DNA of 37,610 bases. It comes from an uncultured Opitutia bacterium. Lineage in GTDB: Bacteria > Verrucomicrobiota > Verrucomicrobiia > Opitutales > Opitutaceae. The position numbers and the translations under genes are program-made. The stretch's first letter is position 1, and every line of letters begins with the position of its first letter. Below the pieces are notes generated by a model. The model worked only from the letters and a program-made list of their open reading frames with translations, searched no databases and was not told the DNA's origin. Below are positions 33,951-36,447 of this stretch, piece after piece. The stretch is from NCBI GenBank assembly GCA_903820035.1, contig CAIJFT010000403.1, positions 1 to 37,610 of the forward strand. Direction: 5' to 3'.

Positions 33951-34811
33951 TCAGACCTTCACTAAAAACAACTCGGGATGCATCGTCCCCTCGGCGACCT
34001 TGTTCACGGTGCCGGTCATCATGATAGAGAAGCCGTCGCCGATCCGGATGCCGATCTGGCCGCCGGGCATGTGTACGGTGACGTCACGGTCGACCAGCCC
34101 GAGGCGATGCGCCACGGCGGCCGAGGCGCTGGAACTGCTGCCCGAGGCGAGGGTATATCCGGCGCCGCGTTCCCAGATCTCGATCTGAATATTTTTGCGG
34201 TCGATAACCTTCAAAAACTGGACGTTGGTTTTACGCGGGAAATTCGGATGCGTTTCCAAGTGCGGGCCGTACCGGTGGGCGAGCTCCGATGAGATCTCGG
34301 GCAGGGGGATCACGCAGTGCGGGTTGCCGATGGTGGCGGCACAGTAGGTGAATTCGCGGTCGAGGACGGTGAGCTTCTCATTGATGACCTCGCGCGGGGC
34401 GCCGGGGAGGTTGACCGGCACCTTGGTGCTGTCGAACGAGACCGAGCCCATCGCGATGGTGAGCAGCTTGCCGCCGTCTTTGATTTCGACCTGCACGTGA
34501 CCACCGGGTGTTTCGACGGTGAAGTGCGGGTTCTTCACCAGGCCTTGGTCCCAGAGAAAACGGGAGAAAATGCGCAGGCCGTTGCCGGACTTCTCGGCCT
34601 CGGAGCCGTCGGGGTTGAAAATGCGCAGGCCGAACTCGCTCTTCTGCGAGGGCAAGGGGCCCCAGAGGATACCGTCGGAACCAACCCCGAAGTTGCGGTG
34701 GCACACGATGCGGATCTGCTCCAGCGTCGGCGCGGGTTTCCACGTGGGGAAATCCGCGGGATTCAGGACGATGTAGTCGTTGCCGAGGGCGTGATACTTA
34801 TGGAAGCGCAT
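33951..34811 (-). CDS. dapF: Diaminopimelate epimerase homologue lacking both catalytic cysteines
   Basis: 286 residues from ATG 34811 (MRFHKYHALGNDYIV is the conserved family start). DapF interconverts LL- and meso-diaminopimelate for lysine and peptidoglycan using two cysteines, one in a CGNG motif and one in a TLACGTG motif. Here the motifs read E-K-S75-G-N-G-L-R (codon 34587-34589) and T-L-A-S223-G-S-S-S-S (codon 34143-34145): both cysteines are serine, while the surrounding fold (VCHRNFGVGSDGI, IFNPDGSEAE, IGNPHCV, EIWERGAGYTLASG) is well kept. The gene is intact, so it is not simple decay. It may use other chemistry, act on another substrate, or be non-catalytic; true epimerase activity may come from elsewhere. 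The symbol marks homology only. Confidence 0.88.
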   Translation of the reverse strand: MRFHKYHALGNDYIVLNPADFPTWKPAPTLEQIRIVCHRNFGVGSDGILWGPLPSQKSEFGLRIFNPDGSEAEKSGNGLRIFSRFLWDQGLVKNPHFTVETPGGHVQVEIKDGGKLLTIAMGSVSFDSTKVPVNLPGAPREVINEKLTVLDREFTYCAATIGNPHCVIPLPEISSELAHRYGPHLETHPNFPRKTNVQFLKVIDRKNIQIEIWERGAGYTLASGSSSSASAAVAHRLGLVDRDVTVHMPGGQIGIRIGDGFSIMMTGTVNKVAEGTMHPELFLVKV

Positions 34812-34884
34812 GTTCGAGGGGCGATGGGGAACCATGAAAGCGGGCAAAAGACACGAAGAAAGTGTGCCCCGATTCATGGTGCGG

Positions 34885-34968: not shown

Positions 34969-36447
34969 TCAGGCGGGCGCGCGGTAACCGAAGAGGTGCC
35001 GGGCCTTGATCGCGGTCGCCACGGTGGGTGGCACCAGTTGTTCCCAGCCGGGCTCGCCGTCGCGGATGCGACCGAGGACATCGCGGGAGATGATCCCGAG
35101 CACCGCCTGATTAAACTCGGTGATGCCCTCGATGTAGTGGTTTTCGAGGAGGTGATCGTAGAGGTTGCGCAGGTGGGGCTCGATGTGAACGTTTTTGGCG
35201 GTGATCAGGACGGCCGCGGCAAACGCGTGGCCCGCCGCCGATCCCGCCGGAGCCTTGCCGCCGATCGCCTGAAACCGGTCGAACGCTTCCTGCCGCATCG
35301 GGTAGACGTAGAGCTTCACCGCGTTTTTGAACATCCGGCCGAACGACTCCAGGATGCCGCCTTCGAGGTGTTCGTAGTATTTCTCGTTGAAGACCTCGAG
35401 GAGGTTATTGATGCCGAGCGCAACGCCGATCATCTCCTTGGTGAACCGCCGGAAATAGGCCGTCAGGCGGTAATATTCGGAGTAGTTCGACACCATCGTG
35501 GTGAAGCCGAGTTCGCCCAGCAGGTCCACGCGTTGGAGGAAATCCTCCGCGTCGAGCGTGCCGGTCAGCAGCAGGTTGTTCATCGTGATCTCCATCAGCA
35601 CGACCACATCCTTGCCCTTCACCTGCGGCTCCTGGACGAACTGCGCGGTGGCGCAGTTGAGCATGTCGACGTTGACGTGCGTCACCGGGCGGAAGCTGCC
35701 GCGCTCGAGGAGTACCGCCTTCTTGTAGAACACTTCCGCCGGCTGCAGCACCTCGCCCTGCGGGCCGAAGAGCACGGCGTTGGTGAGGCCGAGTTCGACG
35801 AGGTGCAGGGCCATCACCCGGTCGTCGTAGCCCGCAAACGCCGGGCCGGAGACGGTCAGCATGTCGACCTCGAAACGCTGCACGCCGAGGTGATCGACGA
35901 GGGATTGGATGAAGCGCTTGGGATCCTGCCGATAGTAGAACGCCGCGTAGATCAGGTTGGTGCCGGCGATGCCCAGCGCCTCCTGCTGCTGGAGATTTTC
36001 TTTGTCCCACATCCGCACGTGGAGGAGCACCTCGCTCGGTGGACCGCCTGGCTCGGTCTGGAACCGCACGCCCATCCAACCGTGGGCGTCGTTGGTGCCC
36101 TTGAAGCCCTTGGTCGCGACGGTGTCGGCGAACACGAAAAACGTCGTCCGGTCGCCGCGCGGCACAGCGAGGCGCTCGTGCAGTAAATTATATTCATGGT
36201 CGAGCATCAGTCCCAGGCGCTCGCGCGACACGTACCGCGGCGCCTTGCCGTAGATCGCGTCGCTGAAATTCATGTCGTAGGCCGAAATCGTCTTCGCGAC
36301 CGTGCCCGACGCGCCGCCGGCCTGGAAAAAAACGCGGGCCACTTCCTGGCCGGCGCCGATTTCGGCGAACGTGCCGTACTTGGGCTCGTCCAGGTTGATG
36401 GTGAGTGCCTTCCGGTTGGTGGTGAGCAGTTCTTTTTTCTCACTCAT
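34969..36447 (-). CDS. Conserved protein of unknown function (492 residues)
   Basis: Starts at ATG 36447 (MSEKKELLTTNRKALTINL); ATG 36459 is possible. The frame continues far upstream but is unconserved. The sequence resembles a family found in Bacteroidota and Verrucomicrobiota with a highly conserved start (YGTFAEIGAGQEVARVFFQA, TISAYDMNFSDAIYGKAPRY) and end (SRDVLGRIRDGEPGWEQLVP). As I recall, it is often given conflicting labels such as nicotinate-nucleotide adenylyltransferase or TonB receptor. I see no HxGH nucleotidyltransferase motif, no signal peptide and no membrane span, so I leave function open. Features: a Gly-rich GGASGT near the start, HGWMGVRFQTEPGG, and a central strand-rich part. 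It is probably a cytoplasmic soluble enzyme. Confidence 0.82.
   Translation of the reverse strand: MSEKKELLTTNRKALTINLDEPKYGTFAEIGAGQEVARVFFQAGGASGTVAKTISAYDMNFSDAIYGKAPRYVSRERLGLMLDHEYNLLHERLAVPRGDRTTFFVFADTVATKGFKGTNDAHGWMGVRFQTEPGGPPSEVLLHVRMWDKENLQQQEALGIAGTNLIYAAFYYRQDPKRFIQSLVDHLGVQRFEVDMLTVSGPAFAGYDDRVMALHLVELGLTNAVLFGPQGEVLQPAEVFYKKAVLLERGSFRPVTHVNVDMLNCATAQFVQEPQVKGKDVVVLMEITMNNLLLTGTLDAEDFLQRVDLLGELGFTTMVSNYSEYYRLTAYFRRFTKEMIGVALGINNLLEVFNEKYYEHLEGGILESFGRMFKNAVKLYVYPMRQEAFDRFQAIGGKAPAGSAAGHAFAAAVLITAKNVHIEPHLRNLYDHLLENHYIEGITEFNQAVLGIISRDVLGRIRDGEPGWEQLVPPTVATAIKARHLFGYRAPA

Follow-up and report, generated by a model that had tools for sequence, protein, structure and literature searches.

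The window analysed here, a stretch of 37,610 nucleotides from an uncultured Opitutia bacterium, carries a reverse-strand gene for a homologue of the diaminopimelate (DAP) epimerase DapF in which serine stands at both places of the catalytic cysteines. DapF inverts a centre of DAP, from which both cell wall and lysine are built. The gene and the codons discussed below are the following:

33951..34811, (-) strand: Ser/Ser DapF-type gene, translated to 286 residues plus stop
34587..34589, (-) strand: Ser75, codon TCC, at the place of catalytic Cys73 in E. coli and Cys75 in Anabaena DapF, directly before helix 76-88
34143..34145, (-) strand: Ser223, codon TCG, at the place of catalytic Cys217 in E. 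coli and Cys224 in Anabaena DapF, directly before helix 224-236
34590..34592, (-) strand: Lys74, adjoining Ser75; K in 99% of 112 Ser/Ser sequences, M in 40/42 Cys/Cys sequences
34569..34571, (-) strand: Ile81; I in 112/112 Ser/Ser, C in 41/42 Cys/Cys
34155..34157, (-) strand: Tyr219; Y in 97% of Ser/Ser, E in 30/42 Cys/Cys
34134..34136, (-) strand: Ser226; S in 112/112 Ser/Ser, G in 42/42 Cys/Cys

A further in-frame ATG lies upstream at 34877; the start shared with homologues is the ATG at 34811. The gene upstream of dapF (34969-36408, reverse strand), which adjoins dapF in several Opitutaceae loci, is matched by neither Pfam nor NCBIfam. In the loci inspected by eye, no lysine or cell-wall genes were conserved beside the Ser/Ser dapF.

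Several features place the window protein in the DapF family: (i) the TIGR00652 profile matches residues 1-277 with 227.8 bits, about twice the cut-off of 114.65; (ii) PF01678 matches with 189 bits and is the only Pfam family to do so in a search up to E 10, in which no proline racemase superfamily profile appeared; (iii) solved DapF proteins align across nearly the full length, the best being Anabaena 9mro with 184.5 bits; and (iv) the AlphaFold2 model, built from 46 sequences (pLDDT 92.1, pTM 0.87), has the two-domain DapF fold. DapF entries occupy Foldseek ranks 1-15 for this predicted model (TMq 0.81-0.88), and proline racemase superfamily structures stand below them among the 50 matches listed, 4k7g, titled 3-hydroxyproline dehydratase, being at rank 31. 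By every feature tested except one (profile, ligand side chains, fold), the window protein is a DapF homologue; the exception is the defining one, a catalytic cysteine at the N-terminus of each of the two central helices. In four phmmer alignments with solved DapFs, Ser75 and Ser223 fall on these two cysteines. The helices of the predicted model begin at 76 and 224, so both serines would occupy N-cap places. The sequence-only reading, which had placed the serines in the motifs KSGNG and TLASGSSSS and had described a clean frame of DapF-like length and fold, is thus borne out by the translation, the alignments, the full-length TIGR00652 match and the predicted fold.

To follow the Ser/Ser pair among relatives, we sampled homologues from the phylum Verrucomicrobiota and below, plus plasmid records. 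The first sample drew on 57 genomes from the same genus, family or order, of which 52 matched, and on the best 80 of 143 loci of GTDB species; among the 134 loci read, 131 were Ser/Ser, 2 were Cys/Cys and 1 was truncated, the sets overlapping and the window's own locus being counted. The class search took in 189 genomes (182 with a match); at phylum level, 85 of 288 genomes matched at 1e-35. Both codons could be read in 199 distinct aligned proteins, of which 154 carry Ser/Ser, 45 carry Cys/Cys (E. coli included) and none is mixed. All proteins read at 41% or more identity are Ser/Ser, and all those at 38% or less are Cys/Cys. Record titles of the Ser/Ser group include Opitutus, Lacunisphaera, Oleiharenicola, Rariglobus and Candidatus Didemnitutus, and the pair was also found outside the order, both elsewhere in the class (families f27, f28, f52, f59) and farther out in the phylum (families f77, f87, f93, f107, f112), as well as in single-contig genomes, e.g. 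G029 and G030. Plasmid records gave 118 matches, with an identity of at most 38.9% among the ten listed.

For the phylogenetic analysis, the alignment excluded matches shorter than about 230 residues and any sequence more than 90% identical to one already kept, and most close Ser/Ser rows were thinned before tree construction. With the eight diagnostic columns removed, the 62 Ser/Ser rows among 104 are all set apart by a single branch (SH-aLRT 99). In the careful tree (60 Ser/Ser and 40 Cys/Cys sequences, four long-branch rows being left out), the Ser/Ser clade has a support of 100/99, and a single Ser/Ser change is found in 100% of 200 bootstrap trees. The serines persist at the codon level as well. 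Ser75 is encoded by TCN in 109 and by AGY in 45 of the 154 Ser/Ser proteins, and Ser223 by TCN in 141 and by AGC in 13; the tree requires at least five TCN/AGY switches at residue 75 and at least six at residue 223, all with serine retained. By the genetic code, a stepwise switch between TCN and AGY passes through Cys or Thr. The dN/dS ratios against six relatives are 0.05-0.29, rough values with dS near or above 1. Judged from these comparisons, the Ser/Ser pair is a clade trait that arose on one branch and is kept by selection, and its retention by a whole branch of related bacteria suggests a working enzyme. A clade trait, the point that the sequence-only reading had wanted checked, is confirmed and reaches further than expected.

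The substrate pocket was compared with that of Anabaena DapF, in which, according to the accessible part of the structural report, DAP is contacted by the side chains of Asn13, Asn66, Asn164, Asn197, Glu215, Arg216 and Thr226, together with backbone amides where the two helices start (PMC12039745). The equivalents Asn11, Asn66, Asn163, Asn196, Glu214 and Arg215 are invariant in 62/62 Ser/Ser sequences, and the hydroxyl equivalent to that of Thr226 (residue 225) is provided by Ser in 57/62 and by Thr in 5/62. The place of Asn163 is taken by Val in 19/42 Cys/Cys sequences; such DapFs, without the Asn ligand of the distal DAP carboxylate, occur in the class (e.g. L304, L305, L306, L308, L309) and may have relaxed specificity. 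Besides the four positions tabulated above, residue 211 separates the two types, with E in 96% of Ser/Ser versus R in 42/42 Cys/Cys sequences. One Ser/Ser member, L132 (EISGNG), has lost Lys74. The same Anabaena report, in the part available, puts the amide of Gly227, which stands at the place of Ser226, close enough to the second catalytic sulphur for a hydrogen bond and describes no basic residue within 4 A of the catalytic sulphurs (PMC12039745). As far as conservation can tell, the co-fixed Lys74, Ile81, Tyr219 and Ser226 mark a redesigned pocket.

The possibility that the window protein is a paralogue of a true DapF did not survive the genome searches. No second PF01678 or TIGR00652 gene over the cut-off was found in the 98% complete window genome, in which two other PF01678 matches lie far below it (E 0.27 and 0.55), and Ser/Ser and Cys/Cys genes were seen together in none of the 182 matching genomes of the class (residues read in part, the rest assigned by identity). 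All of these genomes but G146 and G227 have a single match, and in a separate search a single gene (two half-domain hits) was present in each of the 18 genomes that matched. Both exceptions belong to genus g38. In G146 (G146:C29:57282-58232), the match consists of two adjoining pieces that meet around residues 56-61 inside an open frame of 515 residues, a pattern suggestive of an insertion; in G227, it is in three pieces, one of them listed at G227:C3:30721-31386.

Seven genomes of the order that are at least 90% complete lack the Ser/Ser DapF: three of them have a Cys/Cys DapF in its place (G033, G043, G235), three have the meso-DAP dehydrogenase Ddh and one has neither. On the tree, G033 and G043 sit within the class's Cys/Cys group; G235 is absent from it. 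Both types also occur within the class genus g54, with Cys/Cys in G061 and G096 and Ser/Ser in G075. The genomes of the order at this completeness without any DapF are G051, G186, G215 and G433, of which the first three (loci L300, L197, L198) encode Ddh with 443-462 bits, and G433 has neither DapF nor Ddh. Thus, Ddh is present in 3/4 genomes of the order (at least 90% complete) without DapF versus 4/58 with it (Fisher p 0.0035), and in 5/9 versus 8/102 in the class including the order (Fisher p 0.001); both tests ignore kinship and count G186 and G215, which belong to one genus, separately. Order genomes under 90% complete that lack both DapF and Ddh (G006, G036, G041, G052) were excluded from the counts. 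The either/or pattern has exceptions: G433, G070, G083 and G236, all at least 90% complete, have neither enzyme, and 8/102 genomes with DapF have Ddh as well. The Cys/Cys DapF or Ddh standing in for the Ser/Ser DapF in relatives points to a shared task, and we propose Ddh as a second way of filling the DapF step in those members of the order that lack DapF.

The surrounding pathways were searched in 75 genomes, 66 of which have the Ser/Ser DapF (55 from the order and 11 from the class). LysA was matched in 64/66 Ser/Ser genomes, over the curated cut-off in 38 and below it in 26/64 (G123 with only 115 bits), MurE in 58/66, DapL in 38/66, and Ddh was over its cut-off in 4/66. In the window genome, LysA is found with 449 bits, and MurE and DapL have no match at the thresholds used; both are present in all seven genomes of the same genus that were searched. 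Ddh has no match in the window genome, which speaks against a Ddh bypass there. Because LysA acts on meso-DAP at its D centre, a route through LL-DAP without Ddh needs an epimerase. The motif DNPR, which we take to be the mark of a DAP-type MurE, was found by alignment in 46/47 MurE stretches (9/47 from genomes without the Ser/Ser DapF, and G022 counted twice), in Opitutaceae as ADNPR; the remaining stretch, L234 of G040, reads DNSR. On this count, the idea of a MurE for another diamino acid was rejected. All six Ser/Ser genomes searched from two families, G062, G111, G123, G149 and G218 of f28 and G161 of f59, have no MurE match at 1e-30.

Drawing on what was observed directly (the gene and its residues, a clade on one tree branch, the ligand residues, the predicted fold, no other DapF and no Ddh found in the genome, and the stand-ins in relatives), we consider the window protein to be the functional LL-DAP epimerase of this organism, representing a DapF subfamily without catalytic thiols, with a probability of roughly 0.74. 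LL-DAP would be bound as in canonical DapF, with its distal end held by Asn66, Asn163, Asn196, Glu214 and Arg215 and its proximal carboxylate held by the starts of helices 76-88 and 224-236. The alpha proton would most likely be moved by two hydroxyls, that of Ser75 on one face and that of Ser223 on the other, the places at which other DapFs have a thiolate/thiol pair. We propose that the weaker acid/base strength of serine is offset by the co-fixed Lys74 beside Ser75 and by Ser226, at the place of a glycine that meets the second catalytic sulphur through its backbone NH; these residues would tune the serine pair. That Ser75 and Ser223 themselves are the acid/base pair we put at even odds. We would give the same chance of being right or wrong to the full picture of a natural epimerase free of both cofactor and thiols, in which two opposite-face Ser hydroxyls, tuned by a neighbouring Lys and an extra Ser, exchange an alpha proton whose pKa is around 29, and which originated a single time, when both Cys gave way to Ser and the pocket was redesigned, and then spread through several Verrucomicrobiota lineages. 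Among the functions suggested from the sequence alone, a modified mechanism gives the best fit; another catalytic activity or a regulatory role is less likely because the DAP-contacting side chains are kept, stand-ins occur in relatives, and LysA and MurE are retained.

Serine is a favoured N-cap residue of helices, and both serines precede helices in the predicted model. They might thus cap the helices and bind the carboxylate in a DAP epimerase whose proton is moved by Lys74, by bound water or by one serine with another partner. We regard this arrangement as unlikely, although it would agree with the near invariance of Lys74, a clade-specific residue in a region where Anabaena DapF has no basic residue close to the sulphurs, and with the carboxylate-binding hydroxyl of Anabaena Thr226 (Ser225 here) described in the available part of PMC12039745. 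The serines stand exactly at both catalytic positions, where no clade member read has any other residue, and Lys74 is absent from L132. It is quite unlikely, in our estimate, that the protein binds DAP without epimerising it, as a sensor, an enzyme partner or a one-base enzyme such as a dehydratase, with meso-DAP supplied by an unknown epimerase. Results on relatives favour such a role and count against an epimerase: in the accessible text, a single Cys-to-Ser change leaves the DapF-like racemase PddB with less than 0.1% activity, the same being cited for Mt-DapF (PMC8225329), the activity of HisR, another such racemase, is greatly reduced by Cys-to-Ser (PMC11602996), and the Ser/Thr pair Ser90/Thr256 belongs to trans-3-hydroxyproline dehydratase of the proline racemase superfamily (PMC4113996). 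E. coli DapF has also been solved in a complex with RppH (6d13). The pathway data add to the case against the epimerase, since the window genome yielded neither MurE nor DapL at the thresholds used and over a third of the matched LysA proteins fall below the cut-off. Finally, the part of PMC5303756 available to us gives no DL-DAP by TLC for Lacunisphaera, and DAP at 3-7 nmol/mg by GC/MS, configuration not given, for Lacunisphaera and Opitutus terrae (E. coli, in another study, 63); weak or absent meso-DAP formation would also fit these low values. The same part lists DapF among the genes of strain IG16b with no remark on its residues. Still, a binder of this kind would demand an unknown epimerase across the order, for the Ser/Ser genomes show no other DapF-type gene, rarely have Ddh and nearly always have LysA, and the relatives that carry a Cys/Cys DapF or Ddh instead argue for a task common to all three.

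A shifted or added substrate, e.g. glutamate, is very unlikely. The glutamate racemase MurI is over the cut-off in only 10/58 Ser/Ser genomes, and, according to the section of the report at hand, Chlamydia DapF makes D-glutamate with altered pocket residues that include a Val (PMC5885031). However, Asn163 is retained throughout the Ser/Ser sequences, Val at this place being a feature of Cys/Cys proteins, and MurI is also missing in 14/22 genomes without the Ser/Ser DapF (over the cut-off in 8/22; 80 genomes searched). The model for bifunctional DapF/glutamate racemases, NF038284, gives the window protein 61.3 bits against a cut-off of 350; this score and the retained DAP-binding Asn163 weaken the glutamate reading. 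The chance that the pair is an artefact of sequencing or assembly, or that the gene is decaying, is negligible. Although the window lies in an assembly of 469 contigs with 4.43% contamination, the presence of the same pair in 154 distinct proteins from many assemblies, single-contig genomes included, excludes an error at both codons, and dN/dS well below 1 argues against decay.

DapF is the textbook example of a cofactor-independent epimerase with two cysteines and is an antibacterial target; its thiols, treated as indispensable, are attacked by aziridine and other thiol-directed inhibitors. If the window protein is an epimerase as we suggest, a large natural clade shows that DapF chemistry can run on hydroxyls with the substrate pocket kept, and this clade offers a ready-made set of compensating changes and predicts a DapF that withstands oxidation and thiol-directed inhibitors. 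The Ser/Ser DapF also gives a new angle on an old puzzle, the DAP reported as absent or scarce in verrucomicrobial subdivision 4. According to the part of the report available, Coraliomargarita lacks both DAP and muramic acid (PMC3035286).

Among known systems, the Ser/Ser proteins share with canonical DapF (TIGR00652/PF01678; Anabaena 9MRO, Arabidopsis 3EJX, E. coli 4IJZ) the fold, length, DAP-contacting side chains, GNG and ERGxG motifs and a single gene per genome; canonical DapF differs in its Cys/Cys pair and in lacking the clade's Lys74, Ile81, Tyr219 and Ser226. The engineered C73S and C217S variants (PDB 2Q9H and 2Q9J, by title) bear the Cys-to-Ser change at the same places, but they are laboratory single mutants without the co-fixed changes. 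Where relatives lack DapF, Ddh (TIGR01921) would take its metabolic place; Ddh is an NADPH-dependent enzyme unrelated to DapF. Serine also serves in other epimerases and racemases, as far as the accessible parts of the reports go: 4-hydroxyproline epimerase, of related fold, has a serine as catalytic base beside a cysteine (Ser93/Cys236 in the figure legend, Cys255 in the text; PMC4113996, eLife 2014), and the PLP-dependent serine racemase has a Ser/Lys pair (PMC8142540). Racemases with a Cys/Thr pair have been described as unidirectional, or as turned into a dehydratase. No Ser/Ser DapF appeared in the titles and abstract starts among the open-access matches listed; the natural precedents seen in this fold are Ser/Cys and Ser/Thr. 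The 4-hydroxyproline epimerases and dehydratases of the proline racemase superfamily resemble the Ser/Ser DapF in their related fold and natural serine base at the first position, and differ in having other substrates and, in the available text, no Ser/Ser pair (PMC4113996), the Ser/Thr enzyme being assigned as a dehydratase. The bifunctional DapF of Chlamydia trachomatis comes from the same PVC superphylum and protein family and likewise from genomes without MurI, but it is described, in the part of the work at hand, as retaining both cysteines and combining a remodelled substrate pocket with PLP-dependent glutamate racemase activity.
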